Both the position numbers and the translations under genes were made by a program. The notes beneath the pieces are model-generated. The model saw nothing but the letters and a program-made list of their open reading frames with translations, was not told the origin of the DNA and searched no databases. Shown here piece by piece: positions 3,388 through 24,375 of a stretch of 44,525 nucleotides of DNA. The first letter of the stretch is position 1, and the number at the start of each line of letters is the position of its first letter. The stretch comes from Chloroflexota bacterium (GTDB lineage Bacteria; Chloroflexota; Anaerolineae; Promineifilales; Promineifilaceae): contig JAKEFB010000134.1 in assembly GCA_022616275.1 (NCBI GenBank), positions 1 to 44,525 on the forward strand, written 5' to 3'.

Positions 3388-6003
3388 TTAGTGTTTTGTT
3401 ACCCACGCCTCTTCCGCCTGCAGCGCCCGCACCGCCGCCGGCCGGATCTTGCGGTAGACCATCTCCGGGGGCAGCCGCCGCTCCTCCACCTCTAGCAACC
3501 GGCCGGCGGGGATGCCAAACAGCCGCTCGTTTTCCTCCAGGTACGGCAAAATCAATTCCCAATCTCGCCCTTCAAAGGGGTAAAACTGGCCGCCGTTGAG
3601 CTGGTCGTCCGTCATCCGGCCGTGCGGGTCGCGGACGTAAATCGCCCCGCCCGAGGCCAGCGAGAACAGATTGCCGCCCGGATAAGGTGTCTCCAGCTCC
3701 TCGACCTCGCCGTCGTCGGTCAGGCGAATACCGTTGAGGATGACAAAACCGCCGCCGTTGTGTGGGTCGCCCGCCATAAACGACTCTGCCAGGTAATCCA
3801 GGCACGTCCCGTTAATCACCACCCGCGGCCGGCCCACGGCGTTAATCAGCGGCCGGCCGGCGGCGTTACCCAACACGTACGCCTGCCCGCCCTTAGCCCC
3901 ATACATAAACGTCTGGCCCACGTCGCCGTACACCACCAGCTTCCCGGCCTTCATAATCTGGGCCAGTTGGTCCTGGGCGTTGCCGTGGACTGTGATTACC
4001 ATCCCGTCAATACCCGAGGCCAGGTAATCCCCCGGCGAGCCATACACGTCAATCCCCATCCCTTTCGTCTCCGCGCCAAAGCCGTTGCCGATAAAGCGAT
4101 GGCCTTCGGCGTGGGCGACGATAATCTTGCGGAAGCCGTTCCGGTACAGGCGAACAATTTCCATTGCCAGCGACTGCGGGCCTTCCGGCTTGTACCCCCG
4201 GGCATCCACGACCGCCGTCTGGCATTCCCGGGCCAATGAAGCATACGGCCGCTCGGCGCTGCTGGTGACGTAACCGTGCGTCGGTCTTTGGCCCATCGCC
4301 TCCACCAGCCGGCCGAAACTCTGGTCCACCAGCGCCAGCAGGCTACTGCGCCGCAGTTTGCCGGTCGGGTAGCGCCGGTCCATCAACAGCGTCAACGTCT
4401 CCACCGCCCGCGTCCGCCCCTCGTCCTCGCCGGCCGCCTCTTCCAGCGCGCCTAAAAACGCCAATACGTCTTCATACTCCCACTGTGGCAACCTGTCCGT
4501 CACCCACTCAAACAAATCATTTTTAGATTTTAGATTTTGGATTTTAGATTGTGGGTTGTGGGTTATAGCTTCCTCTTTTGCTAATCCAAAATATGGTTCC
4601 CGGCTGGCGTCGAAGGGAACCGGCCGGCCGAACTTATCCGTGCAACTCAGGCGGGCCGAGCCGTTGCCGTTCGGATAGGCGCTGAAGATAAAAGCCCCGC
4701 CGTCGGTGTGGCTGCCGCCGCGCGCATTCCAATAGCGGTCGGCCCGGCTCCAGAAGCGGCCGTCGTCAGCCGACAGGCTGGCCAGCGCTGCGTCAATCGC
4801 CTGCTTCTCCGACGCGGCAAAGCCAATGGCCGGCCCGTCCGGGCCGACCTGCTGCCAGGCAAAGACCTGCGGCCGGAGCATCGAGGTGTCGGTGATGCAG
4901 GTCAGGCGATGTACCGGGGCGTCCTGCTCCTGGTCGGCCTGGGCGATGAGGAAAAACCACGGCCCGTCTGGCGAGCTGTGCATGTGCGTCACCTGCAGCA
5001 TCTCGTAAATGCGCTGCTTATCGGCCGGCAACATGGCAAAGTCCCGCTCCGTCGTCGGCGCCAGCGCCTCAATCACGTACTCAAGTGGGTAACCGTACGT
5101 CCGGTGTAGCAAATCAAACACCTGCACCGACACCTCCGTATCGGTCAGGAAAAGTTGGTAAATGTTCCGCTGCGCCAGGTATTCACTGATCGAAGCATAA
5201 TTGGCAAAATCGCCGTTGTGTACCAGCGCCTCGTTCAGCCCTACAAACGGATGCGCCCCGCCCGGGTGCCACACCCGCCCCTTCGTCGGGTAGCGATGGT
5301 GGCCAATCCAGACGTGCGCCTGCATCTCCTCCAACTGGTAATAACGGACCACGTCGTCCCCATATCCGACCATCTTCATGACCAGCAGATTTTTGCCATG
5401 GGAGAGGACAAAGGCTCGTGTCCGGCCGGTGGAAGCGTAAAACTCCATGTTCAGCCGCATTGTGTTCTGGTAAACAATCTCGTCCTCCACCTGCCGGCGG
5501 TCCATCTCCAGGCCATGCGCCTGCTGGAACGCGTCAAACACGGCCCGCTTCACCCGCACAAAATAATGGTAGACCTCCGGCGGCTCCACTTCCAGTCGGG
5601 TCAGCACCCGGTAATCAGGCAGGCTGGGCGCCCGGCGCGCCTGGTCTATCTCAAACGTCGGGTAAATATATTTCTGCTCGACCTCCTCCCGGCACGAACG
5701 GTCCAGGTAAGCCACGGCCAGCAGATAATCGTTCTCCAGCACCCCCTGGCTAACGCCAAACTCCTCGGCCACCAGTCCCACGGCGGCAATCCCGCCGCCC
5801 TTGCCGTTGCCCCGGTTGCGCATCTGGTCCAGCGCCTGCAGCAAATGGCGGCCGGCAATCTTTTCGCTACAGGCCATGCCGATAACGCCACAGCCACCTT
5901 CGGCCGCCTCGTCCCGTCCGTCCGGCCGCCACTCCCCATCCGGCCGCAGCCTCCAGCGCGAACGCAATATCTTCTCAATTGTCGCGTGACGAGAAATCAT
6001 CAT
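3388..6003 (-). CDS. Glutamate-synthase-like protein: class II amidotransferase plus GXGXG domain, FMN domain absent
   Basis: 871 residues. After a 37-residue leader, Cys38 in GGCGVIG matches the N-terminal nucleophile of class II glutamine amidotransferases, so propeptide removal like that of GltB is expected. The N-terminal half (to about 480) is the glutaminase domain. The C-terminal part (about 600-830) has repeated glycine turns (GNGFGAETKGMG, YGDVGQTFMYGAKGG, NGGGFVILNG) of the GltB alpha-subunit GXGXG helix. The central and FMN-barrel domains that normally lie between them are missing and are supplied by the upstream gene. A linker near residues 483-495 is encoded by an AAAATCT-type heptamer repeat inserted in frame. 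ATG 6003 follows GAGGA. The gene is last in a three-gene operon. The likely role is release of ammonia from glutamine for transfer to 2-oxoglutarate. Confidence 0.88.
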   Translation of the reverse strand: MMISRHATIEKILRSRWRLRPDGEWRPDGRDEAAEGGCGVIGMACSEKIAGRHLLQALDQMRNRGNGKGGGIAAVGLVAEEFGVSQGVLENDYLLAVAYLDRSCREEVEQKYIYPTFEIDQARRAPSLPDYRVLTRLEVEPPEVYHYFVRVKRAVFDAFQQAHGLEMDRRQVEDEIVYQNTMRLNMEFYASTGRTRAFVLSHGKNLLVMKMVGYGDDVVRYYQLEEMQAHVWIGHHRYPTKGRVWHPGGAHPFVGLNEALVHNGDFANYASISEYLAQRNIYQLFLTDTEVSVQVFDLLHRTYGYPLEYVIEALAPTTERDFAMLPADKQRIYEMLQVTHMHSSPDGPWFFLIAQADQEQDAPVHRLTCITDTSMLRPQVFAWQQVGPDGPAIGFAASEKQAIDAALASLSADDGRFWSRADRYWNARGGSHTDGGAFIFSAYPNGNGSARLSCTDKFGRPVPFDASREPYFGLAKEEAITHNPQSKIQNLKSKNDLFEWVTDRLPQWEYEDVLAFLGALEEAAGEDEGRTRAVETLTLLMDRRYPTGKLRRSSLLALVDQSFGRLVEAMGQRPTHGYVTSSAERPYASLARECQTAVVDARGYKPEGPQSLAMEIVRLYRNGFRKIIVAHAEGHRFIGNGFGAETKGMGIDVYGSPGDYLASGIDGMVITVHGNAQDQLAQIMKAGKLVVYGDVGQTFMYGAKGGQAYVLGNAAGRPLINAVGRPRVVINGTCLDYLAESFMAGDPHNGGGFVILNGIRLTDDGEVEELETPYPGGNLFSLASGGAIYVRDPHGRMTDDQLNGGQFYPFEGRDWELILPYLEENERLFGIPAGRLLEVEERRLPPEMVYRKIRPAAVRALQAEEAWVTKH
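4521..4568. repeat. AAAATCT heptamer repeat inside the amidotransferase gene, in frame
   Basis: On the plus strand, TTTTAGA/TTTTGGA units with a seven-base period continue into GTGGGTT units. On the coding strand they add the residues PQSKIQNLKSK to the interdomain linker without breaking the frame. The same unit fills the junction at 34949-34980. Confidence 0.8.
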
Positions 6004-6027
6004 CGTTCCTCAAAATGTAATGAGCGC

Positions 6028-6146
6028 AGTTGGTGGAGTTGGGCGGCCCAACTCCATCCACTACGAGCAATGAGTGAACTTGCCCACTTGCAAACCTGCA
6101 AACTTGCATACTCGCAGCGACCCTTGGTCGCCACTCGCCCACCCGC
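6028..6146. repeat. Compound repeat cluster in the operon spacer (hairpin, octamers, 37-base dispersed repeat)
   Basis: The spacer between the FMN-domain gene and the amidotransferase gene holds three elements. First is TGGAGTTGGG-CGG-CCCAACTCCA, a perfect ten-base-pair hairpin at about 6032-6055. Second is a run of ACTTGCAA/ACCTGCAA octamers at about 6079-6110. Third is a 37-base stretch at 6106-6142 that recurs without change at 21907-21943 and contains GCGACC-CTT-GGTCGC. The GAGTTGGGCGGCCCAAC core also recurs at about 19619-19640. Confidence 0.8.
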
Positions 6147-7448
6147 TCACTCGCCTTTATACACCAACAGGTCTCTCCGGCCGCGCAACTCCCCAATCGA
6201 AGTCAGCCCCAGCCGCCGGAGAATATCCTCCAACTGGACAGACAGGGCATTGTAATAGTTACTAATCCTCTCCATACCCCACTCCGGGTCCACCAGCAGT
6301 TGCAGCTCCGGGTCCGTCGTCGTCAGGCCAAACGGGCAGCCCCGGCCGCGTTCACAATTAGAACAACGCGTGCAGCCCAGGGCCACCAGGTCGCCTGTGC
6401 CGATCACGCAGCCGTCCGCCCCCAGGGCAATCGCCTTGGCCATGTCGTCAGCCGTGCGCACGCCGCCGCTGGCTATCAACGTCACTTCGTCGCGAATGCC
6501 TTCGCTCTCCAGGTAACCGTGTACCTTGGGAATGGCAAACTCGACCGGCATGGCGATATTCTTCTTGGCAATCTCCGGCGCCGCGCCCGTGCCGCCGTAA
6601 GAGCCGTCCAGGTGAATGATGTGCGCCCCGGCGTAATAGCTGCCGACGGCCACCATATCCACGTCGTGTGGCGTCGAGACCTTCACCGAAACCAGGGCTG
6701 CAGGGTTGACCGTCTTGATCCAATCTACGTGCTTGCGATGGTCCTCCACCGAGTACACTGAGTGGAACGGGAACGGCGAAAAGAGGCTCACCCACGGTAC
6801 GCTTTCCCGGATAGCCGCCACCGTGGCCGTCGTCTTGTCCCCCAGGAGGTGGCCACCCAGCCCCGGCTTGGCCCCCTGGGCGTATTTAAACTCCACAATC
6901 GGCGCGTACTGGATCGTTTCCTCCCGCACGCCGAACATCCCTGTCGCCACCTGCGTAATCACCCGGTGTTTGTAAGGAACCAGGCCCGGCGGGTATCCAC
7001 CCTCCCCGGTACAGGTAAACGTATTCCAGGCCTCGGCCGCCTTGGCCCGCGCCACCATCACCTGCTCACTCACCGAGCCATAAGACATGCCGCCGCCGTA
7101 AAAAGGCACCGAAATCTCGATCTCCCGGCCCTCGCCCCGGCGGTTCAAAGGAATCGCCAGGCTGATTGGCTTCGTTTCCGGCGTCCACTGTTCCTGGGGC
7201 AAAAATTTAAAGTCCAACACGTCAAATCCGCCCCCCGACCGGCCAACCCGGTACTCCAATCCGTTCTCCGGCGGCCGGCCGGTCCCGGCCATGTGCCAGG
7301 TAGACAAAATCAACTCCTCCGTCCAACGGAAATCGCCCATCGCTGGCGGCAGGCCATATTCCAACGTTGGCCACACAGCAAACCCGTGGCTCAACGCCTC
7401 CCGGCTCTTACGCGTCACATTCGGATTAATAACCTTCAACTCGTCCAT
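6147..7448 (-). CDS. Glutamate synthase, FMN-binding domain protein (archaeal-type split GltB)
   Basis: 433 residues from ATG 7448, one base after the upstream stop, with GGGAG five to six bases ahead. It has the glutamate-synthase FMN barrel: FYGGGMSYGSVSEQ near the start of the barrel, PGLGGHLLGDK, SVKVSTPHDVDMVAVGS, the FMN/substrate loop DGSYGGTGAAPE, and ASGGVRTADDMAKAIALGAD. A cysteine cluster CTRCSNCERGRGCPFG near residues 358-372 suits the Fe-S centre that passes electrons to FMN. It would form glutamate from 2-oxoglutarate and ammonia delivered by the amidotransferase subunit encoded downstream. No NADPH-binding GltD-type subunit is nearby, so a ferredoxin donor is more likely. An in-frame ATG 21 bases earlier would overlap the upstream gene. 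Confidence 0.9.
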   Translation of the reverse strand: MDELKVINPNVTRKSREALSHGFAVWPTLEYGLPPAMGDFRWTEELILSTWHMAGTGRPPENGLEYRVGRSGGGFDVLDFKFLPQEQWTPETKPISLAIPLNRRGEGREIEISVPFYGGGMSYGSVSEQVMVARAKAAEAWNTFTCTGEGGYPPGLVPYKHRVITQVATGMFGVREETIQYAPIVEFKYAQGAKPGLGGHLLGDKTTATVAAIRESVPWVSLFSPFPFHSVYSVEDHRKHVDWIKTVNPAALVSVKVSTPHDVDMVAVGSYYAGAHIIHLDGSYGGTGAAPEIAKKNIAMPVEFAIPKVHGYLESEGIRDEVTLIASGGVRTADDMAKAIALGADGCVIGTGDLVALGCTRCSNCERGRGCPFGLTTTDPELQLLVDPEWGMERISNYYNALSVQLEDILRRLGLTSIGELRGRRDLLVYKGE

Positions 7449-7449
7449 T

Positions 7450-8862
7450 CTAACTCCCATACCCTTCAATACCGGCGAACGCCTCTCGCTCCAGGTCCTT
7501 CTGGAACATCGCCCGCCCTATCTCGCCCCGTAGCCGGCGTACCTCCCGCAGGCCCATCGCCCCCATCACCTCCAGGAGTTGGTCGCGCCAGGCCGCCGTC
7601 AGGTTCTTCAGCCGCTGCACGCCCCAGGCCACGTCCAGCCCGGCCGGCAACTGGCAATGGTCGTCGTGGCGGTGCGTGAACTCACCATTGAAACGGGCCT
7701 GCAAAGCCACCAGCAATGGCGTATCCAGCGCCACGGCGTCCAGCCCGGCAATAATCGCCTTGGGCACATGCTCGGCCGCAACAACGCCGCCGCTGCCCAG
7801 CAGCGTTACCTCGTCTCGCCGGCCGGCCTGCACAAACGTCTTGTGCGCCGCCCGGATCAGGTCAAAGACAAAAGCGCCGTCCCGGCCCCGGCCGTGATAA
7901 TTGGCCGTCAGGTGGAAAACGCGTACCCCGGCCTCGGCGTAGCGCAGCAGCTCCTCCCCGGCCGTAAAATCCAGGCGCAGGCACACCGTCACCCCGGCCA
8001 TAGTGCGGCTGATGGCCTCGTAAAGCTGCTCGTCCCAACCATCCATCACCACCATCTTCGGTTTGAAAGGCAAAGAGATCAGCCGCCGGGCCTCGGCCGG
8101 CGTGAAAAGGGGCGCCAGGTGCGGGCCGCGCAACTGGTTGGCCAGGATCGCCTCAACCGGCAAAATAGCCAGGCTGCCAATCTCCCCGGCCGCCTCGGCC
8201 ATGACCCGGTACAGGGTTGGCGTGGCCACCGCTGGCGCTGGCGCGTCAAACAGGAGGGGCAGCGGAATCGTGAACGTTTGCGGCGTCTTTCCGGCCGCTT
8301 CCCCCCGCTCGTCAAAAACCAGAAAATTCAGCCTGCTGCCAATGTCTACCACCGTCGAGATAAACTCTCGGCCGTGAATGCCATCACGGGTCGGCCGGAC
8401 AATCTCCGACATATCCGTCCACATGCCGTCCCAGCCCTCCCCGCCAAAGCGGCCCCGGTAGCCGGCCCCCTTCACCGGGATCCGGCCCGACTCTGCTTCG
8501 TAGGCAACAGCATTCACGTGGCGGAACGTAAAGTAAGAATCGCCCAGCCGCTGCCGCTCCGGGTTGGGCTCGACCCGGACCCACTCCGGGTACTGCGTCG
8601 TACAACGCAGGCAGCCGACACATTTTTCCGAGCGCGGCATAAACCCGCCCACCGGCCCGGAAAAGACCCCGTACAGGCACGGCCGGCTGAGCATCACTTC
8701 CACGTCGCCCCGGTAATGGATCAACTCGCTCAACAGCAACCGGGCCAGCCCCACCCGGCTAACCTTGACCTTGAAACGGCTGGGCCAGGCAACAATGTCC
8801 GGCGCTGTTTTCGTTTCAATGTGGTAGCGGTGGTAACCATCAGAAACGGACAAATTATTCAT
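7450..8862 (-). CDS. Ferredoxin-domain protein with a glutamate-synthase-related FMN barrel
   Basis: 470 residues from ATG 8862. A longer frame to 8982 would run through the leader terminator and is rejected as the start. The N-terminal part carries CVGCLRC near residues 78-86 and an additional Cys near 60, suggesting an Fe-S cluster of ferredoxin type. The remainder looks like a TIM-barrel oxidoreductase related to the GltB FMN domain, ending with LLGSGGVVAAEHVPKAIIAGLDAVALD and a C-terminal tail resembling that of the next gene. It appears to be a diverged paralogue of its neighbour. It is the first gene of the operon and is tightly coupled to the FMN-domain gene (stop TAG, one base, ATG). 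An electron-input role for the glutamate synthase complex is a reasonable inference. The exact substrate is not known to me. Confidence 0.82.
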   Translation of the reverse strand: MNNLSVSDGYHRYHIETKTAPDIVAWPSRFKVKVSRVGLARLLLSELIHYRGDVEVMLSRPCLYGVFSGPVGGFMPRSEKCVGCLRCTTQYPEWVRVEPNPERQRLGDSYFTFRHVNAVAYEAESGRIPVKGAGYRGRFGGEGWDGMWTDMSEIVRPTRDGIHGREFISTVVDIGSRLNFLVFDERGEAAGKTPQTFTIPLPLLFDAPAPAVATPTLYRVMAEAAGEIGSLAILPVEAILANQLRGPHLAPLFTPAEARRLISLPFKPKMVVMDGWDEQLYEAISRTMAGVTVCLRLDFTAGEELLRYAEAGVRVFHLTANYHGRGRDGAFVFDLIRAAHKTFVQAGRRDEVTLLGSGGVVAAEHVPKAIIAGLDAVALDTPLLVALQARFNGEFTHRHDDHCQLPAGLDVAWGVQRLKNLTAAWRDQLLEVMGAMGLREVRRLRGEIGRAMFQKDLEREAFAGIEGYGS

Positions 8863-9301
8863 CTTTTTACTCTTAAACAAAAAAGCACGCCTTTGGCGTG
8901 CCACTTCATTTTTGATTTCAGGTACGCCCTCCAGCTTCAGAACACCGGCAACGATTCCAGTTGCCTGCGACCACCACAGCACGCTTTGTCGGCCGGTTAC
9001 CCGGGCCGCTTTAACATGCCGCTTGTTCTGGAGGGAAACTCAGGGCGTAGTCACCCTGGGAGGCATCCGCTGATCTCTCGATTTTCCAAACCTTAGGGGC
9101 AAGGCCCCTAAGGTCGTTAGCTCCACTTTGCAGTGAAGAACCTCCAACCTCGTCAACCTGGCCTGGCGGCCAGGTCCATGCGCTTTGAATCCCTGCTGGT
9201 AACTGTTTAATCTGGCTGTAGCCGGTCTCCGACTATGGCTGGCTTCAAGCCACGGCCACGTGAGGAACAGTTACCCCTGCTATTCAATTGTTGCCCTATA
9301 A
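8863..9301 (-). promoter_or_regulatory. Long structured 5' leader of the glutamate synthase operon (attenuator or riboswitch-like)
   Basis: About 440 bases separate the predicted transcription start near 9301 from ATG 8862. On the minus strand a long stem is visible: plus positions 9185-9190 pair with 9282-9287, and 9198-9207 pair with 9266-9275. Between the two helices lies a near-symmetric internal loop with the same bases on both sides. Inside is the small hairpin TAGTCGG-AGA-CCGGCTA. A perfect ten-base-pair hairpin lies at 9091-9113. The leader ends in an intrinsic terminator at 8879-8901, only 17 bases before the start codon. The terminal part AAGTGGCACGCC vaguely resembles a T-box. The full T-box consensus is not met, so the class remains open. 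Confidence 0.6.
8879..8901 (-). terminator. Rho-independent terminator in the leader, upstream of the glutamate synthase operon
   Basis: On the minus strand GCACGCC-AAA-GGCGTGC forms a seven-base-pair stem followed by TTTTTT. It lies between the promoter at 9308-9336 and the first gene, so it must be read through or prevented for expression. This is the usual arrangement of transcription attenuation. Confidence 0.78.
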
Positions 9302-9307
9302 CCTGCG

Positions 9308-9336
9308 ATTGTAAGACTTGGTCGGAAAAAAATCAA
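9308..9336 (-). promoter_or_regulatory. Sigma-70-type promoter for the glutamate synthase operon
   Basis: On the minus strand TTGATT (plus 9331-9336) and TACAAT (plus 9308-9313) are separated by 17 bases. The predicted start is near 9301. A weaker divergent rightward candidate, TTGGTC with TATACT at 9343-9348 and a 19-base gap, overlaps it and could serve the response regulator gene. Confidence 0.6.
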
Positions 9337-9383
9337 GTAAAATATACTTGGGATACTCCCCCGATGAAACGAGGTCACCTGCC

Positions 9384-9755
9384 ATGAAAACCATTCTCCA
9401 CATTGAAGACAACCCGGCCAATACAATACTCGTCGAGCGCATCCTGGAAGCACACGGTTATCGGGTGGTGCATGCCGCCGATGGCGAATCGGGCATCCAG
9501 GCCGCCCTCGCTTCCGAACCAGACCTGATCCTCATTGACATGGGCCTGCCGGACATTGACGGCCAGACGGTGGTCACGCTACTGAAACAACTCCCCACCC
9601 TCCAGGGCATTCCCCTGGTGGCCATTACCGCCTGGCCGCCGGAGCAGGCTCTGGAAATTGCCCGGCGCTACGGCCTGGCCGGTTGTCTCCTGAAACCAAT
9701 AGACGTCAAAACCTTTCCCCAACAAATTGCGCAGTTTCTAGAAGGTCGCCCGTAA
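9384..9755 (+). CDS. Single-domain response regulator (CheY-like receiver)
   Basis: 123 residues. ATG 9384 begins MKTILHIEDN, the normal start of a receiver domain. An upstream frame from 9318 adds an unlikely tail that overlaps the promoter. The acidic pair is Glu8/Asp9, the phosphoacceptor Asp52 is in LILIDMGLPD, a Thr lies in VAITAWP, and the invariant Lys is in LLKPID. There is no output domain, so it acts by protein contact, as in phosphorelays. No kinase is adjacent. The downstream GNAT gene follows almost without a gap, suggesting co-transcription. Confidence 0.9.
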   Translation: MKTILHIEDNPANTILVERILEAHGYRVVHAADGESGIQAALASEPDLILIDMGLPDIDGQTVVTLLKQLPTLQGIPLVAITAWPPEQALEIARRYGLAGCLLKPIDVKTFPQQIAQFLEGRP

Positions 9756-9768
9756 TGTGCCACGCCTT

Positions 9769-10620
9769 ATGAAACTTGTACCGGCCGACCAATTCACCAT
9801 CGAGCAGCTCACCGAAGCCTACAACCAGACCCGCGAAGATTACATTGTGCCCATGCCCATGAACGTGGCCCGCCTGCGCGAGTACATCCACGTTTACGAC
9901 GTGGCCTTGAATGCTTCCTGCGTGGCCGTCGAAGGAGATGACGTCTTCGGCCTGGGCATGTTGGCTGTTCGCGAGGGCCGTGGCTGGATCACTCGCCTGG
10001 GCGTTTTGCCCACCGGCCGCCGCCGGGGCACCGGCCAGGCCCTGATGGATGGCCTGCTGGCCGGAGCCGCCGCCCGCCGCTTAAAAACCATCTGGCTGGA
10101 AGTCATTCAAGGCAACGAACCCGCCTACCATCTCTTTGTCAACAACGGTTTTACCGAGACCCGCGAGTTAGTCGTCGCCCGCCGGCCGCCCGACCCCCAC
10201 TTCGCCTGGCTACAACCTGGCCAGCGGCCAGAAAGTTGGCCGCGGACTACGACCCTCAGCCACGAAGAAGCCCTGATCCTCCTGGCCCACCGCCGCGACC
10301 GGCCGAACTGGCTCAACGAAACCGAATCCATGCGCAACGTCCGCAACCTCACCGCCCTGGTCGTGGAATTTCAGGACGGCAGCCGGGGCTGGGTCAGCTA
10401 CCACGCCAGCATCATTCAACTGACCCGGATCAATGTCGAAGTGACCACCGGCCGGCCAGACCAGGTCGCCGCGGCCGTTTTGGCCCTCATGCATCAGCGT
10501 CATTCCAGCCAGGACGCCATTCTTGAAAACCTGCCCGCTGCCGACCCCAAATGGCCCGGCTTCCAGCAAGCCGGCTACTTCGCCACCTTCCGCCGCACCG
10601 AAATGGTGAAAGAGTTGTAG
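9769..10620 (+). CDS. GNAT-family N-acetyltransferase
   Basis: 283 residues from ATG 9769. A GTG at 9757, two bases after the previous stop, is an alternative in the same frame. The N-terminal half has the acetyl-CoA loop in RLGVLPTGRRRGTGQALMDG, followed by LEVIQGNEPAYHLFVNNGF, typical of motif A and the following strand-helix of GNAT enzymes. The C-terminal half (about residues 150-280) is less conserved and may be a second, degenerate GNAT-like lobe. The substrate is unknown. It closely follows the receiver gene. Confidence 0.85.
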   Translation: MKLVPADQFTIEQLTEAYNQTREDYIVPMPMNVARLREYIHVYDVALNASCVAVEGDDVFGLGMLAVREGRGWITRLGVLPTGRRRGTGQALMDGLLAGAAARRLKTIWLEVIQGNEPAYHLFVNNGFTETRELVVARRPPDPHFAWLQPGQRPESWPRTTTLSHEEALILLAHRRDRPNWLNETESMRNVRNLTALVVEFQDGSRGWVSYHASIIQLTRINVEVTTGRPDQVAAAVLALMHQRHSSQDAILENLPAADPKWPGFQQAGYFATFRRTEMVKEL

Positions 10621-10727: not shown

Positions 10728-10782
10728 ATTGACCTTGAGGCAGCCCTTGACACTTAGCTCACAAAAAGCCAAACTTCCAGCT

Positions 10783-13533
10783 ATGAAACCTGTTCCCGCC
10801 TCCTCCCCCCAGCCTTCCGACGTCGCTGCCGCGGCCGCCCGTCTGGCCGGCATCGCCACCTACACCCCGGTCATGACTTCCCGCTCGCTCAACGAGCATA
10901 CCGGCCGGGACGTCTTCCTCAAATGCGAGAACTTCCAGCGTATCGGCGCTTTCAAGTTTCGGGGCGCCTACAACGCCGTCAGCCAGCTTAGTCCGGCCGA
11001 AAAAGCCGCCGGCGTCATCACCCACTCCAGCGGCAACCACGCCCAGGGACTGGCCCTGGCCGCCCGGCTGCTGGGTGTGCAAGCCGTCGTCGTCATGCCT
11101 GAAGACGCCCCGGCCATCAAGCGCGAAGCCACCGCCGCCTACTGCGCTCGCATCATCCCCTGCCAGGCCATCGAACGCGAGGCCGTCACCGGCCGCCTCA
11201 TCGCCGAGCATGGCTACACCCTCGTTCACCCCTTCGACAACGACGACATCATCGCCGGCCAGGGCACCGCCGCCTGGGAGCTGTTCCAGGAAGTGGGCGA
11301 ATTGGACCTGTTGTTTGTCCCCGTGGGCGGCGGCGGGCTGATCAGTGGCTGCGCCCTCGCCGCCGCGTCTCTCTCGCCCCATTGCCGCGTCGTCGGCGTC
11401 GAGCCGGCCCTGGGAGCCGACGCCAACCACTCCTGGCGTTCCGGCGAAATCCACACCCTCGACCACGTGCCGGCTACCATTGCCGACGGCCTGCGCACTC
11501 GCGCCATCGGCCGGCGCAACCTGGCCGTCATGCGCCGCTACGTGTACGACATGACCACCGTCAGCGAGGAAGCGATTATCGAAACCCTCAAATATCTCTG
11601 GCAGCGGTTGAAAATTGTCGTCGAGCCCAGCGCCGCCGTCGCCCTGGCCCCTCTGTTCACCGGCCAGTACCAGGCCCCGGGCCGGCGCGTCGGCATCATC
11701 CTCAGCGGCGGCAACGTGGACATCCTCAACCTGCGCCTGGAAATAGGTCAGGACCAATCACCAGAACCCGCCGCCCGGCCGGCCACCTCCCTCCAGGCGC
11801 CACCCCAGGAACGTTGCCGGGTCCTGGTGTGTGATCCGATTGATGAAGCTGGTCTGGCCATCCTGCGGCAGGCGGCCGACGTTGAGGTACGCGCTGGCCT
11901 TAGCGAAGAAGCCCTCCAGGTCATCGTCGGCCGTTACCATGCCCTGGTCGTCGGTGACGCCACCCGCGTCACCGGCCAGGTCGTCGAAGAGGGCTACCGG
12001 CTGCGGGTCATCGGCTGCGTTGGCAGTCGGCTGGACAACATAGACGTCAGTGCTGCCCGTGCCCTGGGTGTTGAGGTCAGCTACAGCCCCAGCAGCAACG
12101 CCGTGGCCATCGCCGAACACACCCTCAGCCTGATGCTCACCCTGGCCGCCCGGGCCGCCCAGGAACAAGATCACCCGGCCGGCAGCGGGCTGGCCGGCAA
12201 GACCCTGGGGCTCATTGGCTTCGGCCGGATCGGCCGGCAGGTGGCCCAGCGCGCTCTGGCCTTTGATATGCGCGTCCTGGTCAACCAGCCCCGCTTGACT
12301 CCCGAGCTGGCCCTGGCCGCCGGCGTCGCGGTCACCGACCTCCCCGATTTACTGCGTGAAGCTGATTTCGTCAGCCTTCATGTCCCTTTCAAAGCCGAAA
12401 CGGAAACCTTGATCGGCCCGGCCGAGCTGGCCCTGATGAAACCCACCGCCTTCCTGATCAACACCGCCCACACCGACCTGGTTAACGACACCGCCCTCCT
12501 GGAAGCCCTGGACAACCACCGGCTGGCCGGGGCCGCCCTGGCCACCTTTGCCCCCAAGGTCCAGGGCAGCGAAATCCGGCCCGCGGCCGCCCTGCGCCAG
12601 CACCCCCACGTCATTGCCGCCAGCCACGTCACTGCCTTCCGCGACGACCGCTCCCAGGAAGCGGCCGTGGCCGTAGCCCGCCAGGTTGTGGCTATTCTCC
12701 ATACCAAACAGCCCAGCGAGACCCTTTCCCTGGAAGTGGTCCCCATTGAACAGGTGCTCCCCCACGAGCAAATTGACGACAAACGCGTCGCCCGGCTAAT
12801 GGACCGCCTGGAAGAAGACGGCCGCCTGGTCAACCCGCCGGTCGTCACCTACTGGGACGGCAAATACATCGTCCTCGACGGCGCGACCCGTTTTACTGCC
12901 CTCCAGCGCCTGGGCTATCCCTACGTTATCGTCCAGGTCGTCCCGGCCCACAGCCAGGAGTTTGCCCTCCACACCTGGTATCACGCCATCTCCAGCGAGC
13001 GGCCGGTCACCGGGCTGTTTGACCACCTGCGCCAGATCAACGGCCTGACCCTGACCCCCCTGCCGGCCGGCCAGATCCAGACCGCCTTCAGCGAAAAAGA
13101 CGCCCTCTGCTACTTCCTCGACCGCGAGGGTAATGCCACCCTGGCCCAGGCCCAACCCGGCGCCGACCGGCTGGCCGTTATGAATACCCTCGTCGCCGCC
13201 TACACTGGGTGGGGTAGCGTCGAGCGCACGCTGCTCACCGACCTCGGCCGGCTGTTGGGCCAGTTCCCCGACATGGTCGCCGTCGCCGTCTTCCCCCAGT
13301 TCAGGCCCGAGACCGTCTTCGACGTTGCCAGTCGGAGCGAGCTGCTGCCGGCCGGCCTGACCCGCTTCGTCATCCCCGGCCGCATCCTCCGCCTCAACGC
13401 CGACCTGGCCCGCCTCAAGCAAGACGAGCCCCTGGCTGCCAAACGCGCCTGGTTCAACCACTTCCTCGAAGACAAGCTCGCCCGCAGCCGCCTCCGCTAT
13501 TACCAGGAACCGGTCATCCTCCTGGATGAATAA
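10783..13533 (+). CDS. Three-module fusion: PLP serine/threonine dehydratase-like, PGDH-like NAD-binding, ParB-like domain
   Basis: 916 residues from ATG 10783; a TTG at 10729 could add 18. Residues about 13-325 form a fold-type-II PLP enzyme (threonine/serine dehydratase or serine racemase type) with Lys58 in FKFRGAYNA, SSGNHAQG and the glycine loop PVGGGGLISG, all intact. Residues about 345-640 resemble D-3-phosphoglycerate dehydrogenase, with an intact NAD loop LGLIGFGRIG near 476. However, the expected catalytic Arg is His (NTAHTD in place of NxARG), the catalytic Glu is lost (TFAPKV in place of xFxxEP), and the phosphate-binding Arg is Gly; the His survives (ASHVTAF). From about 652 to 725 comes a ParB-like domain with VLDGATRFTAL, comparable to the fold of the free-serine kinases SerK/SbnI, then an uncharacterised tail to 916. 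The parts point to serine metabolism or sensing. This is inference. Confidence 0.85.
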   Translation: MKPVPASSPQPSDVAAAAARLAGIATYTPVMTSRSLNEHTGRDVFLKCENFQRIGAFKFRGAYNAVSQLSPAEKAAGVITHSSGNHAQGLALAARLLGVQAVVVMPEDAPAIKREATAAYCARIIPCQAIEREAVTGRLIAEHGYTLVHPFDNDDIIAGQGTAAWELFQEVGELDLLFVPVGGGGLISGCALAAASLSPHCRVVGVEPALGADANHSWRSGEIHTLDHVPATIADGLRTRAIGRRNLAVMRRYVYDMTTVSEEAIIETLKYLWQRLKIVVEPSAAVALAPLFTGQYQAPGRRVGIILSGGNVDILNLRLEIGQDQSPEPAARPATSLQAPPQERCRVLVCDPIDEAGLAILRQAADVEVRAGLSEEALQVIVGRYHALVVGDATRVTGQVVEEGYRLRVIGCVGSRLDNIDVSAARALGVEVSYSPSSNAVAIAEHTLSLMLTLAARAAQEQDHPAGSGLAGKTLGLIGFGRIGRQVAQRALAFDMRVLVNQPRLTPELALAAGVAVTDLPDLLREADFVSLHVPFKAETETLIGPAELALMKPTAFLINTAHTDLVNDTALLEALDNHRLAGAALATFAPKVQGSEIRPAAALRQHPHVIAASHVTAFRDDRSQEAAVAVARQVVAILHTKQPSETLSLEVVPIEQVLPHEQIDDKRVARLMDRLEEDGRLVNPPVVTYWDGKYIVLDGATRFTALQRLGYPYVIVQVVPAHSQEFALHTWYHAISSERPVTGLFDHLRQINGLTLTPLPAGQIQTAFSEKDALCYFLDREGNATLAQAQPGADRLAVMNTLVAAYTGWGSVERTLLTDLGRLLGQFPDMVAVAVFPQFRPETVFDVASRSELLPAGLTRFVIPGRILRLNADLARLKQDEPLAAKRAWFNHFLEDKLARSRLRYYQEPVILLDE

Positions 13534-13536
13534 CCA

Positions 13537-14082
13537 ATGATCAAACCTCAGCAAGATACACATGGACATGTCGAGCCCAAGGCCAGCCGCCCCTACATGC
13601 CTGACTACGGTATTCTCGACGCTCAGAGCGGCCAGGGATTACTTCCTTGGAGTTGGGCAACCGAGCGTCTGGCGCGTGCTCTCAATTACTGGATAGCGAC
13701 AACACGGCCGGATGGACAGCCGCACATGACACCTGTGTGGGGCGTCTGGCTGGACGACACCTTCTACTTCAGCACGGGCCGCCGTTCGCGGAAGGCACGT
13801 AATCTGGCAGTCAATCCACGATGCGTCGTCTGCCCCGAACACGCGGACGATCCGGTCATCTTGGAAGGTGTTGCCGAGAGGGTTACTAATCCTGCACTGC
13901 TCAGGCAAGTTGCAGACGCCTTCAGCCAGAAGTATCAGTGGAGTATGGAGCCAACCCAGGAAGGGGTACATGATGAGCACGGGAACGAGGGACCGGTCTT
14001 TGCCATTCACCCCCAGGTCGCATTTGCCTTTAGTGACGACCTTGTTGGCAGTGCAACTCGCTGGATCTTCAGTGAGGACTAA
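13537..14082 (+). CDS. Pyridoxamine 5'-phosphate oxidase-like flavin/F420 split-barrel protein
   Basis: 181 residues. ATG is three bases after the stop of the fusion gene, so the two are probably co-transcribed. The core WIATTRPDGQPHMTPVWGVWLDDTFYFST, broken here by position at about 49-78, followed by GRRSRKARNLAVNP, is typical of the PNPOx-like split beta-barrel family that binds FMN or F420. The C-terminal FAIHPQVAFAF is also typical. The substrate is unknown. The base composition is slightly less GC-rich than in the neighbours. Confidence 0.85.
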   Translation: MIKPQQDTHGHVEPKASRPYMPDYGILDAQSGQGLLPWSWATERLARALNYWIATTRPDGQPHMTPVWGVWLDDTFYFSTGRRSRKARNLAVNPRCVVCPEHADDPVILEGVAERVTNPALLRQVADAFSQKYQWSMEPTQEGVHDEHGNEGPVFAIHPQVAFAFSDDLVGSATRWIFSED

Positions 14083-14462: not shown

Positions 14463-14468
14463 GTCTTG

Positions 14469-15089
14469 ATGATCCATGCAGTCATTTTCGACGTGGGCGG
14501 CGTTCTCGTCCGCACCCCCGACCGCCGCCACCGCCGCCAGTGGGAAGAGCGGCTCGGCCTGGCCGATCGGGAAACCGAAGTGATCGTCTTCAGTGGCGAA
14601 ATGGGTACCCGCGCCCAAGGCGGTGAAATTACCAGCGATCAGTTGTGGCAGTGGGTCGGCCGGCGATTAGCCTTGTCACCCGAAGAACTGGCCAACTTCC
14701 GTCGCGATTTTTGGGCCGGCGACGTATTAGACGAAGGGCTGATAGCTTACATCCGCTCGCTCCGGCCGCGCTACCAGACGGCTATCATCAGCAACGCCAC
14801 CGACAACCTGCGTCGCAACCTGACCGAGTTTTTCGCCATTGCCGATGCCTTTGACCTGATCGTCTGTTCGGCCGAAGAAAAGCTGATGAAGCCCAACCCC
14901 CAAATCTACCGGCTAACGCTCGAACGGTTGGGCCGCGAACCGGCCGAGGCGGTCTTCATTGACGACAGCGCCGACAACGTCGCCGCCGCCCGCCACGTCG
15001 GCATGATTGCCATTCACTTCAGCCCGTCCCTGGACCTCCCGGCCGAACTCGCCCGCCTCGGCGTCGTCCCAATAACCAATAACCAATAA
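14469..15089 (+). CDS. HAD-superfamily hydrolase
   Basis: 206 residues. ATG 14469 is five bases after GGAGG; the TTG three bases earlier is less likely. Motif I is FDVGGVLV, where the second aspartate position is Gly, as in several HAD subfamilies with DxGGV. Motif II is in AIISNATDN, the motif III Lys is in EEKLMKPNPQIY, and motif IV is VFIDDSADNVAAA. The cap is helical (subfamily I). Likely a small-molecule phosphatase or related hydrolase. The last residues (PITNNQ) and the stop are encoded by the following repeat. First gene of a four-gene operon with a GNAT and an ABC transporter. Confidence 0.9.
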   Translation: MIHAVIFDVGGVLVRTPDRRHRRQWEERLGLADRETEVIVFSGEMGTRAQGGEITSDQLWQWVGRRLALSPEELANFRRDFWAGDVLDEGLIAYIRSLRPRYQTAIISNATDNLRRNLTEFFAIADAFDLIVCSAEEKLMKPNPQIYRLTLERLGREPAEAVFIDDSADNVAAARHVGMIAIHFSPSLDLPAELARLGVVPITNNQ

Positions 15090-15147: not shown

Positions 15148-16176
15148 ATGTTACTAGAACGCACCTACACCCCCAATATCGAACAAGACTTCATCGTCCG
15201 CCCGGCCGAAATGGGCGACCTGGAAGCCGCCTACGAGCTGTTTAAGGCCTGCGGCGACCCGGAGGTTTCCCTGGAGCATATCCGCAGCGAATGGCTGTTG
15301 CCTACATTTGACCTGGCGACAACGACCCGCCTCGTGTTTACCCCGGAAGGGCAACTCGTTGGCTATATCGAAGTCTGGGACAACGCCAACCCATCGGTCC
15401 GCATCTGGGTCTGGGGCCGGGTCCACCCGGATTATGAAGGGCTGGGTATCGGCAGTTACCTCATGGAGTGGGCCGAGCAGCGTTCCCGCCAGGCAATCGA
15501 GCGCGCCCCGGCCGGCAGCCGTGTCGTCATGCAGGCCGGGAACCACAACCACAACCGGCCGGGCCATCGCCTGTTGAGCGATCAGGGTATGCAGCTTATC
15601 CGCCACTCCTGGACCATGAAAATAGAGTTGGACACGTCGCCTCCTGCTCCGCAATGGCCGGCTGGCGTCACCGTTCGGCCGATGCGCGATGAGGCCGAAT
15701 TGCGCGCCATCGTTCATGCTGTGCGCGATTCCTTCCAGGACCATTGGGGCTACCTCCCCCAGCCGTTCGAGGAAGAGTTTGAGCGCTGGCAGCACTTCAT
15801 GCGTCAGGACGAACATTTCGACCCCTCCCTCTGGTTCCTGGCCATGGACGGCGAAGAAATCGCCGGGGTCTCCCTGTGCCATGCCCATCGGGAAGAAGAC
15901 CCGGACATGGGCTGGGTCGGTACGCTCGGCGTGCGCCGGCCGTGGCGGCGGCAGGGGCTGGGCCTGGCTCTGCTCCAGTACAGCTTTGGCGAGTTTTACC
16001 GGCGTGGCAAGGCCCGCGTCGGCCTGGGTGTAGACGCCGGCAGCCTGACCGGGGCTACCCGGCTCTATCAAAAAGCCGGGATGCACGTCGCCCGCCAGTT
16101 TGACCTTTACGAAAAAGAACTACGGCCGGGTAAAGAACTGACCACCCAGTCGCTCAATGAAAGAGCTGACAGCTAA
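15148..16176 (+). CDS. Tandem GNAT acetyltransferase (two GNAT domains, mycothiol-synthase-like layout)
   Basis: 342 residues; ATG follows AGGAG. Domain 1 (about 15-155) has WVWGRVHPDYEGLGIGSYLM. Domain 2 (about 175-330) has WVGTLGVRRPWRRQGLGLAL with the R/QxxGxG acetyl-CoA loop, then LYQKAGMHVARQFDLYEK. Two GNAT lobes in one chain is the layout of MshD and related enzymes, but nothing shows that mycothiol is the substrate. The final ADS-stop is encoded by the repeat that follows. It lies between the HAD and ABC genes in the operon. Confidence 0.88.
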   Translation: MLLERTYTPNIEQDFIVRPAEMGDLEAAYELFKACGDPEVSLEHIRSEWLLPTFDLATTTRLVFTPEGQLVGYIEVWDNANPSVRIWVWGRVHPDYEGLGIGSYLMEWAEQRSRQAIERAPAGSRVVMQAGNHNHNRPGHRLLSDQGMQLIRHSWTMKIELDTSPPAPQWPAGVTVRPMRDEAELRAIVHAVRDSFQDHWGYLPQPFEEEFERWQHFMRQDEHFDPSLWFLAMDGEEIAGVSLCHAHREEDPDMGWVGTLGVRRPWRRQGLGLALLQYSFGEFYRRGKARVGLGVDAGSLTGATRLYQKAGMHVARQFDLYEKELRPGKELTTQSLNERADS

Positions 16177-21607: not shown

Positions 21608-21640
21608 GCGTGCCAACAGCGCCCATTGGCGATAAAATAG

Positions 21641-21847
21641 GACTATGTCCTCACCATTTCCTGGCATGGAGATGTCCCCCTGCGCTTGCAGGCTGCCTTC
21701 GAGGAAATGTTCCGGCGCGCTCATTACGCCGAAGTGATGGACTATTCTGGCGACGTACCCCCACCGCGCCTGCGCCCGGCCGATGCCAGGTGGGTCCAGG
21801 AACAACTACACGCCTGGCGAGCCAAACAACGACAACCGGGCCAGTAA
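21641..21847 (+). pseudogene. 3'-terminal remnant of a DUF4058-like gene
   Basis: A 68-codon frame directly follows an in-frame TAG (21638-21640) and has no usable start or ribosome binding site, but reads like a real C-terminus. It has a two-helix region LRLQAAFEEMFRRAHYAEV, then DYSGDVPPPRLRPADARWVQEQLHAW, given by position at about 36-61. The aspartate-tyrosine, Pro-rich stretch and final Trp-containing helix resemble the end of DUF4058 proteins, which are common in Chloroflexota and cyanobacteria. Repeats border the fragment on both sides, so the 5' part was probably lost by repeat-associated deletion. Confidence 0.55.
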
Positions 21848-21950
21848 GCAAACAGCAGGGGCAAGTAAGCGACAAGGAGGCAAGTAAAAAGGCAACCCGC
21901 CCACTCGCATACTCGCAGCGACCCTTGGTCGCCACTCGCCCACTCGCAAA
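21848..21950. repeat. CAAGTAAG-type units and the second copy of the 37-base dispersed repeat
   Basis: Units CAAGTAAG/CAAGTAAA are followed by ACTCGCC/ACTCGCA heptamers. Positions 21907-21943 are identical to 6106-6142. The repeat ends only a few bases before the ATG of the penicillin-acylase gene and leaves no room for a ribosome binding site. Confidence 0.85.
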
Positions 21951-21954
21951 CACT

Positions 21955-24375
21955 ATGAACCTCCTCCACCGCCTCACCGCCGCCTGTCTAAAACCCACCC
22001 TGCTCTACATGAGCCGCAACCGCCTGCCCCAGGTCAGCGGCCGCCTCTACCTGCCCGGCCTCAAACGCGAGGTCGTCATCCGGCGCGACCGCTGGGGCAT
22101 CCCCCACATCCACGCCGCCAACCGCCACGACCTCTTCTTTGCCCAGGGCTTTGTCCACGCCCAGGACCGCCTGTGGCAGATGGAGCTAAACCGCCGGGCG
22201 GCCAGCGGCCGCCTTTCCGCCCTCCTCGGTGAAATCGCCCTGGAAACCGACCGCCTCACCCGCACCCTGGGCTTCGGCCGGCTGGCCAGGGCCGCCTGGG
22301 ACACCACCGGCGACCTGGTCCGCCACGACGCCCTCGCCTATAGCGCCGGCGTCAACGCCTACCTGGCCCAAAACCCCAAGCTGCCGGTGGAATTTGCCTT
22401 GCTCCGCCACCGGCCGGAACCCTGGGACCCGCTCGATTCCCTGACTTTCGGCCGGATGCTGGCCTGGACACTTTCCTACGGCTGGGCCGGCGAATTGGCC
22501 CGGGCCAGGCTGGTCGAAAAAGTCGGCCCTGAGCTGGCCGCCGAATTGGAACCCCGCTACCCGGAGCGCAACCCCCTCACCCTGCCCCAGGGCATCCAGT
22601 TCAACCGCCTGGAACCGGACGGTATGCTCCGGGCCGCCGCCGGCCCCTTCCTCGGCCGGGGCGCCGAGGGCGGCGGCCGGGGCAGCAACGGCTGGGTCAT
22701 CTCCCCCCGCCGCAGCGCCACCGGCCACGCCATCTTATGCAACGACCCCCACCTGCCGCTCACCAGCCCCGGCCTCTGGTATTACCTCCACCTGCGCTCG
22801 GAAGCTGGCCAGAACGAGCCGGCCCTCCACGTCGCCGGCGTCTCCCAGGCCGGCGTTCCCTACGTCCTTGTCGGCCACAACGACCACATCGCCTGGGGCG
22901 CCACCCTCTCCTTTGCCGACTGCGAAGACCTGTTCGTCGAAAAGCTCGACCCGGCCGATCCCACCCGCTACGAATTCCAGGGCCAGTGGCGGACCGCCCA
23001 ACTGTTTGAAGAACGCATCCAGATCAAAGGCCGGCCGGACCACGTCGAGCGCGTCGTCGTCACCCACCACGGCCCCCTCATCAGCAGCGCCCTGGCCGGT
23101 GGCCTGGAACCCGGCCCCAACCTGGCCCTGGCCCTCAGCGCCACCGCCCTCCACCCTTACGAAACCTTCGACGGCTTCGCCCTGCTCAACCAGGCCCGCC
23201 ACTGGGACGACTTTGTCGCCGCCGTCCGCCGCATCGAAAGCCCCTCCCTCAACCTGATCTACGCCGACACTTCAGACAACATCGGCTACTACGTCTCCGG
23301 CCGCCTGCCGGTCCGGGCCAAAGGGCAGGGGCTGGTCCCCGCTCCCGGCTGGACCGGCGAATACGAATGGACCGGCGTCATCCCCTTTGAAGAGATGCCC
23401 CACGCCCTCAACCCGGCCCAGGGTTTTCTGGTCACCGCCAACCACCGCATCATTGGCGACGATTACCCCCATTACCTGGGCTCGGTCTGGATGAACGGCT
23501 ACCGCGCCCGCCGCCTGGAGCAGTTAATCACGGCCCAGGAAAAAATCTCTCTGGAGGACTGCCGCCGCTTCCACCTCGATTTCTACTCCATCCCCGGCCG
23601 CGAGCTGGTCGAGCGGCTGGCCAGCCTGGAACCGGAAGACCCCGACGCCGCCCTCAGCCTGGATCTGCTCCGCCAATGGGACGGCTGGCTGGGAGCTGGC
23701 AGCGCCGGCGGGGCCGTTTACGAAATCTTCCTGGCCTGCCTGTCCCGGACCATTCTTGAGCCTAACCTTGGCCGCGAGCTGGCCTTGGAACTACTGGGCC
23801 AGGGGCCGCACCCCCTGCTCTATCCCATCAGCGAATTTTACGGCTACTGGACCGTCACCCTCCTGCGCCTGCTGGACAATCCGCAAACCGCCTGGCTGCC
23901 CGGCCGCACCGGCCGCCAGGCCATCCTCCTCCGCTGCCTGGCCCAGACCACGGTCGAACTGCGCCGCCTCCTGGGCGACGACCCCCGCCGCTGGCACTGG
24001 GGCCGGCTCCACCAGGTCCGCTTCCCCCACGCGATGGGCCTCCTGCCGCCGCTGGACCAGGTCTTCAACCAGGGGCCGCGGCCCATCGGGGGCGACACCA
24101 ACACCATCACCCAAACGGCCATAGCCCCTGGCCAGGGCTACGAAAACAACGCCTTCTCCGTCTCCTACCGCCAGATTGTAGACCTGGGCCACCTGGCCAA
24201 CAGCCTGGCCATCCACCCCCCCGGCCAGTCCGGCCACCTCGCCAGCCCCCACTACGGCGACCTGATCGAACCCTGGCTCCAGGGCGACTACTATCCCATG
24301 AGCTGGGACGAGGCCCAGGTAGCGGCCGCCACCCGTCACACCCTCACCCTCTCCCCAGCCACAGATCGCGAATAG
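21955..24375 (+). CDS. Penicillin-acylase (N-terminal nucleophile hydrolase) family protein
   Basis: 806 residues from ATG 21955. An upstream frame to 21610 translates repeats and is rejected. A later ATG at 22009 is possible. Alpha-chain signature: IRRDRWGIPHIHAANRHDLF and QGFVHAQDRLWQMELNRR. The autocatalytic site GRGSNGWVI gives Ser244 as N-terminal nucleophile of the beta chain. Later features are NDPHLPLTSPGLWY, GHNDHIAWGATLSF and HAMGLLPPLDQVFNQGP. The family hydrolyses amides such as penicillins, acyl-homoserine lactones and cyclic lipopeptides. The substrate cannot be told here. There is no clear signal peptide, only a weakly hydrophobic N-terminus, although most family members are exported. 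Confidence 0.92.
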   Translation: MNLLHRLTAACLKPTLLYMSRNRLPQVSGRLYLPGLKREVVIRRDRWGIPHIHAANRHDLFFAQGFVHAQDRLWQMELNRRAASGRLSALLGEIALETDRLTRTLGFGRLARAAWDTTGDLVRHDALAYSAGVNAYLAQNPKLPVEFALLRHRPEPWDPLDSLTFGRMLAWTLSYGWAGELARARLVEKVGPELAAELEPRYPERNPLTLPQGIQFNRLEPDGMLRAAAGPFLGRGAEGGGRGSNGWVISPRRSATGHAILCNDPHLPLTSPGLWYYLHLRSEAGQNEPALHVAGVSQAGVPYVLVGHNDHIAWGATLSFADCEDLFVEKLDPADPTRYEFQGQWRTAQLFEERIQIKGRPDHVERVVVTHHGPLISSALAGGLEPGPNLALALSATALHPYETFDGFALLNQARHWDDFVAAVRRIESPSLNLIYADTSDNIGYYVSGRLPVRAKGQGLVPAPGWTGEYEWTGVIPFEEMPHALNPAQGFLVTANHRIIGDDYPHYLGSVWMNGYRARRLEQLITAQEKISLEDCRRFHLDFYSIPGRELVERLASLEPEDPDAALSLDLLRQWDGWLGAGSAGGAVYEIFLACLSRTILEPNLGRELALELLGQGPHPLLYPISEFYGYWTVTLLRLLDNPQTAWLPGRTGRQAILLRCLAQTTVELRRLLGDDPRRWHWGRLHQVRFPHAMGLLPPLDQVFNQGPRPIGGDTNTITQTAIAPGQGYENNAFSVSYRQIVDLGHLANSLAIHPPGQSGHLASPHYGDLIEPWLQGDYYPMSWDEAQVAAATRHTLTLSPATDRE

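Follow-up and report, generated by a model that had tools for sequence, protein, structure and literature searches.

The window analysed here, a stretch of 44,525 nucleotides of Chloroflexota DNA, carries on its forward strand a gene that joins three enzyme-type domains in a single chain. The frame at 10783-13533 (+) is open throughout its 917 codons, counting the stop, and encodes a protein of 916 aa; a TTG in the same frame at 10729, taken as the start, would lengthen it by 18 residues to 934 aa. Its N-terminal part (10783-11748, +) is a fold-type-II PLP domain of the THA ammonia-lyase/serine racemase type, identified by Pfam (PALP at residues 26-309, E 4.9e-76), NCBIfam and its residues. 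A linker follows (11749-11796, +), recognized by orthologue identity, which averages 18% among nine orthologues over residues 321-343. The middle part (11797-12717, +) resembles 3-phosphoglycerate dehydrogenase (PGDH) in its Pfam matches (2-Hacid_dh at residues 347-644, E 1.4e-20; 2-Hacid_dh_C at residues 457-616, E 6.1e-41), solved-chain matches and residue alignment. The C-terminal part (12730-13530, +) is a predicted free-serine kinase domain of the SbnI/SerK type, full length by NCBIfam, solved-chain matches and residues.

A sequence-only reading of this DNA had described a single uninterrupted frame with three domains in this order. The open frame and the profile search it proposed, which matched PALP, 2-Hacid_dh, 2-Hacid_dh_C and SbnI models, bear the description out. 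For the third domain its lead towards SerK and SbnI held, whereas the label of a ParB-like fold alone did not, the domain being a full SbnI homologue by NCBIfam. Pfam gives only a weak ParB_N match here (E 0.063) and detects neither the HTH nor the C-terminal dimerisation domain of the ParB chromosome segregation protein at E values of 1 or below. The fusion gene is a real, conserved combination of known domain families.

Of 53 genomes in the same Chloroflexota family, 44 encode an SbnI domain, among them all 17 of high quality. A search for the same architecture in other genomes found the three-part form, judged by open-frame length (859-945 aa), in 20 of the 53. Alignment of the PLP part confirmed it in 17 of these 20, with G016 counted through L026, a named record that occupies the same position on the contig; the status of G460, G458 and G008 is given by frame length alone. 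Shorter frames of 553-641 aa occur in 19 of the 44 genomes, contig ends cut the SbnI frame in five, and G010 has both a three-part and a two-part form. Throughout the 39 family genomes with an uncut frame the SbnI domain lies in a frame of at least 553 aa, and wherever these frames were aligned it is fused to a PGDH-like domain. Among 400 genomes drawn from the phylum, 28 have an SbnI domain, three of these being members of the same family. The other 25 have stand-alone SbnI frames of 240-376 aa, with two exceptions: a 601-aa PGDH-SbnI frame in G146, and a 508-aa frame in G207 with neither a PGDH nor a PLP match. G085, from the same draw, has an additional 91-aa SbnI piece. The six named relatives of the source genome are Chloroflexi and Anaerolineae/Anaerolineales MAGs, and a search of plasmids returned only nine records, distant and unfused-looking SbnI relatives of staphylococci and bacilli.

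The middle domain shares its fold family and GxGxxG loop with 3-phosphoglycerate dehydrogenase SerA (TIGR01327; PDB 1wwk), and the window protein scores 221 of 454 bits against TIGR01327. Unlike SerA, it has lost the catalytic Arg and Glu, the phosphate Arg and the Asp at the end of beta-2. Aligned with the reference PGDH 1wwk, the triad positions (Arg-Glu-His) read H, K and H, so that the catalytic His is kept; the phosphate Arg, which contacts the substrate phosphate in PGDH, is Gly, and the beta-2 Asp is Gln. The retained NAD loop and the three losses named in the sequence-only reading (Arg to His, Glu to Lys, phosphate-contact Arg to Gly) were thus all confirmed.

Rows with less than 75% domain coverage and duplicate rows were left out of the residue tables, among them the PGDH part of L033, a truncated stretch that itself shows the triad. 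Across the 15 fused rows that were compared, the catalytic Arg is His in 14 and Tyr in one. The DVFxxEP motif is kept in none, and is absent as well from the three rows with E in the Glu column. In every row the phosphate Arg is replaced by Gly or Asp and the beta-2 Asp by Gln; all three Gly of GxGxxG persist in 14, the window protein among them. The two-part PGDH-SbnI rows (n = 13) are mixed: four (L029, L032, L092 and L119) have all three catalytic residues and six keep the phosphate Arg. Their beta-2 Asp is Gln in 11 and Glu in two, and the beta-2 change is therefore present even in the four triad-bearing rows. Among 21 stand-alone PGDH rows, by comparison, the beta-2 Asp is found in all and the Arg in 20. 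The stand-alone row from the source genome ends before Glu and His; its full protein passes the PGDH cut-off. A different arrangement is seen in G026 (L115 1-1401, -), where a second PGDH, in which His replaces Arg and Arg replaces His, adjoins a triad-bearing one.

Rough dN/dS values were obtained from nine fused proteins, with dS near saturation and 18-29 of 36 pairs usable per segment. By segment, the NAD part of the PGDH-like domain gives 0.17, the remainder of that domain 0.26 and 0.28, the SbnI part 0.12-0.17, the PLP part 0.13 and the linker 0.83. In the three-part form, purifying selection appears to act on the NAD(P)-binding part, and the low ratio of so altered a domain, rough as it is at near-saturated dS, suggests that the domain is kept for something. 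Judging from its residues, it probably no longer dehydrogenates. It is unlikely that this domain is still an oxidoreductase of changed chemistry and cofactor, with His standing in for Arg, the old His retained and the Asp-to-Gln exchange suited to NADP. An HT[DEN]L motif at the former Arg position and the catalytic His, each present in 14 of 15 fused rows, would fit such an enzyme, as would an NQPR[LM]TPE motif found in all 15 and in the triad-bearing G146 protein, and the apparent selection on the NAD part; yet the Glu motif and the phosphate Arg are gone, identity drops to 34% in the C-terminal strip, and the same genome encodes a full-length SerA (642 bits against a cut-off of 454). A pseudo-dehydrogenase remains our preferred description of the middle domain.

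Assignment of the C-terminal half to the SbnI/SerK kinases is well supported by homology. The SbnI model of NCBIfam is matched over positions 7-253 of 254 (E 5.7e-26), and the solved-chain matches are SbnI (5uje, E 1.6e-20) and SerK (5x0b, E 5.1e-5). The likeness to SbnI, the free-serine kinase of staphyloferrin B (PDB 5uje, 6nr6), thus spans the full length and includes the catalytic Glu and Asp, E662 and D699 of the window protein being equivalent to SbnI E20 and D58. SbnI kinase activity requires both residues, according to PMC9641203. The window domain differs in falling short of the equivalog cut-off (91.4 of 350 bits) and, unlike SbnI, in being fused to PLP and PGDH-like domains. Proteins that likewise join a ParB-type fold to other domains are the ParB-CTPase-fold fusions of PMC12704722; the main text of that paper names SerK and SbnI, and the words dehydrogenase, pyridoxal and PALP are absent from that main text.

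The sequence-only reading had left the choice between a serine-level sensor and an enzyme. Either is consistent with the data, and an enzyme seems the likelier since the catalytic residues of both the PLP and the kinase domain are intact. Ligand-sensing tails are common on serine enzymes, and the whole protein could be a serine dehydratase whose SbnI part is a large serine-sensing, regulatory tail. SbnI itself also regulates transcription and binds heme, as described in PMC7139808. Even so, such a role is improbable for a domain in which the equivalents of E20, D58, G59 and R62 are present in 43 of 43 SbnI-domain rows, and which 4 of 13 two-part relatives pair with a triad-bearing PGDH. A working kinase is the reading that we carry forward.

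At the other end of the chain, the PLP domain of the window protein keeps the Schiff-base Lys, SSGNH, GGGG, the E/G/D of the metal site, LSGGN and the Ser for PLP N1, the pattern of fold-type-II dehydratases and racemases. Together with the PALP match, this upholds the earlier identification of a PLP domain with its lysine and loops in place, and the Lys, SSGNH and metal-site residues recur in 13 of 13 fused rows. The best-scoring NCBIfam model is NF005454, threo-3-hydroxy-L-aspartate ammonia-lyase, at 425.3 of 452 bits, and the nearest solved relative is 1v71, the fission-yeast serine racemase, followed by chains named serine racemase. Catalytic residues are shared with this family; the window protein differs from it by some 600 extra residues and a score 27 bits below the cut-off. 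The family assignment is well supported, although the sequence does not fix the substrate.

Kinase and PLP lyase domains on one chain could also form a channelled two-step enzyme, in which the kinase would make O-phosphoserine and the PLP domain would eliminate or replace the phosphate, in the manner of SbnI and SbnA. A conserved Arg in the loop near serine racemase Ser242 would favour this; by an approximate alignment, with serine racemase numbering and Ser242 as a substrate-side residue, it is present in 13 of 13 fused and 8 of 9 close stand-alone rows (L089 has Ser). We nonetheless hold such channelling to be a poor prospect: the PLP domain belongs to the dehydratase/racemase family, unlike CysK and SbnA, and its gene is likewise conserved as a separate unit, for instance in G020, a genome in which the search for SbnI domains found none. 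Moreover, IucA/IucC-type siderophore genes, for which a control search was positive in 2 of 14 named genomes, were found in 0 of 21 genomes, a further difference from SbnI. The staphyloferrin-type version of the channelled route to a phosphoserine-derived product, as the sequence-only reading had put it, loses its footing here, and with a PLP domain of the dehydratase rather than the SbnA type a staphyloferrin-type siderophore role is rejected. Deamination or racemization by the PLP domain, beside a separate kinase reaction, is the preferred alternative.

The genes around the fusion recur as well. A response-regulator receiver protein (9318-9755, +) lies upstream in 7 of the 9 distinct fused loci with an upstream flank, and a GNAT acetyltransferase (9757-10620, +) directly upstream in 8 of these 9, L098 being the exception. 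Downstream, an HAD-IA hydrolase (14466-15089, +) is shared by five distinct fused loci (the window, L021, L023, L024 = L046, and L045) and a tandem GNAT protein (15148-16176, +) by four (the same without L045). A PNPOx-like protein (13537-14082, +) begins 3 bases past the fusion stop and clusters with no gene of the other compared loci. Farther away, the window holds split glutamate-synthase-like genes (3388-8982, -), with GXGXG and GATase_6 on one protein (871 aa) and a Glu_synthase domain on another (440 aa), next to a 510-aa neighbour with no Pfam match. It also encodes a protein of the Penicillin-amidase family (21610-24375, +; E 5.4e-224), an LVIVD repeat protein with nine repeats (24482-26410, -) and a probably secreted protein of 1789 aa with PPC, P-domain, InhA-type MAM, DUF7507 and BACON-type matches (28347-33716, +).

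Nine stand-alone PLP genes were found in family genomes, in hosts with a PGDH-SbnI frame or, for G020, without an SbnI match; identity to the fused domain is 61-75% for eight of them and 51% for the one in G005. The same GNAT gene lies directly upstream of six of them (L082, L083, L084, L086, L088 and L091), and a receiver gene lies near four of the nine, against 7 of 9 fused loci. In this comparison the gene picker took an antisense frame over the PLP gene in L085 and over a gene in L097. The shared neighbours indicate that the fusion usually sits in a receiver-GNAT-PLP-HAD cassette that also exists without it; the cassette genes indicate no pathway. The SbnI tree has a supported clade that unites the fused rows with some two-part rows, and a second clade of eight further two-part rows; the PLP tree is poorly resolved. 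In the trees fused rows stand among unfused ones, and contig cuts account for several of the 'two-part' or 'one-part' labels. We infer that the three-part gene arose by union of the PLP gene of such a cassette with a PGDH-SbnI gene. Relatives carry the two pieces as separate genes; the trees fix neither the order nor the number of events. That the frame is instead an assembly join or a decaying pseudogene has a negligible chance: the source genome is assembled in 309 contigs, one of which makes up the whole window, but alignment verifies the same fusion in 17 genomes, internal stops are absent, the rough dN/dS is far below 1 everywhere except in the linker, and recurrence across family genomes therefore excludes both chance and the join of separate genes for which the sequence-only reading had allowed.

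Serine metabolism in these genomes has its own enzymes. In the source genome, serA is followed in a row by a class V aminotransferase gene (under every cut-off) and a gene for a SerB-like HAD protein (76.8 of 144 bits). Of 21 genomes, 19 encode a separate PGDH at least 50% identical to the SerA-type protein of L044, as do all 12 of the three-part ones; the only stand-alone PGDH matches in G002 and G021 are weaker. The fusion as the sole PGDH of its genome was consequently rejected. All 21 genomes have SerB-like matches, none of which reaches the family cut-off. At two loci (L044 74-7037, +; L035 5485-9409, +) an aminotransferase gene and a triad-bearing PGDH gene precede a PGDH-SbnI gene, with a glycine-cleavage P-protein gene ahead of the row in L044; the two-part proteins of both loci have lost residues of the triad in their own PGDH part. 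Desulfurococcales have PGDH and aminotransferase genes next to serK, and a route from serine to 3-phosphoglycerate was proposed (PMC5120207). The archaeal ADP-dependent SerK of that work has in common with the proteins described here the kinase family and a PGDH partner, as well as the aminotransferase neighbour in L044 and L035. In contrast to the archaeal case, the partners are fused, the host is a member of the Chloroflexota and the three-part form lacks the PGDH triad. The triad-bearing two-part proteins resemble the archaeal serK/PGDH arrangement in fused form.

A connection between the serine kinase and cysteine synthesis is no more than suggested. In the source genome JAMM, ThiS-type and ThiF-rhodanese genes adjoin a CysM-like one, which scores 347.5 of 394 bits against cysM. 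Among the three genomes compared, the same set is found in G029 (L138; last gene cut) and the JAMM gene in G013 (L139). The ThiS-type gene, whose best NCBIfam model is SAMP1 (58.3 of 60 bits), is named CysO by context. The cluster matches the mycobacterial CysM-CysO-Mec-MoeZ set, the CysM of which uses O-phosphoserine (PMC3227635). Two associations were examined in genomes drawn, non-randomly, from listings of earlier searches. A CysM-like gene accompanies the SbnI domain in 23 of 35 genomes and occurs in 10 of 18 without it (p 0.55), and this association was rejected. No cysKM match at 1e-30 was found in G010, a three-part genome, and no CysM-like match at 1e-80 in G003, G012 or G462, the last also three-part. 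With two duplicates removed, cysE passes its cut-off in 4 of 55 genomes with an SbnI domain against 11 of 25 without (p 0.00025). Replacement of serine acetyltransferase by the serine kinase was kept only as a hint: family f23 alone shows no difference (1 of 7 against 1 of 11), and shared descent may explain the overall contrast.

Taken together, the sequence evidence favours, with a probability of roughly 0.55, a serine branch-point enzyme in which a serine kinase and a serine lyase or racemase are held, and probably regulated, by a pseudo-dehydrogenase. Given its homology and intact catalytic residues, the C-terminal SbnI/SerK-type domain would convert free L-serine to O-phosphoserine. The N-terminal PLP domain, from its family and intact residues, would deaminate or racemize serine or a close 3-hydroxy amino acid. 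Between them, the PGDH-like domain, whose nucleotide-binding part is apparently under purifying selection, may serve as a scaffold or sensor that binds NAD(P), links the two active ends and probably tunes them. The O-phosphoserine could then be used by the mycobacterial-type CysM-CysO-Mec cysteine route, the cluster for which is seen in the same genome.

A more far-reaching proposal, tentative and on balance doubtful, is that this one protein sets the fate of free serine. It would either deaminate or racemize serine or phosphorylate it for cysteine or central carbon metabolism, and the choice would fall to the dead dehydrogenase, through its reading of NAD(P)(H) or of a phosphoglycerate-type ligand. 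The protein would have evolved from a two-part dehydrogenase-kinase that is itself a fused archaeal serine-assimilation pathway. No description of the three-part or the PGDH-SbnI fusion was found in the open-licence papers searched, which is weak evidence of absence.

The free-serine kinases described so far are few; those met in the papers cited here are SerK and SbnI. The two-part PGDH-SbnI genes fit the role proposed for serine kinases in converting serine to 3-phosphoglycerate, and would extend that role beyond the archaea. The fused and unfused relatives form a natural series that runs from a triad-intact dehydrogenase to a probable pseudoenzyme and offers a direct test of what a dead NAD(P) domain does.
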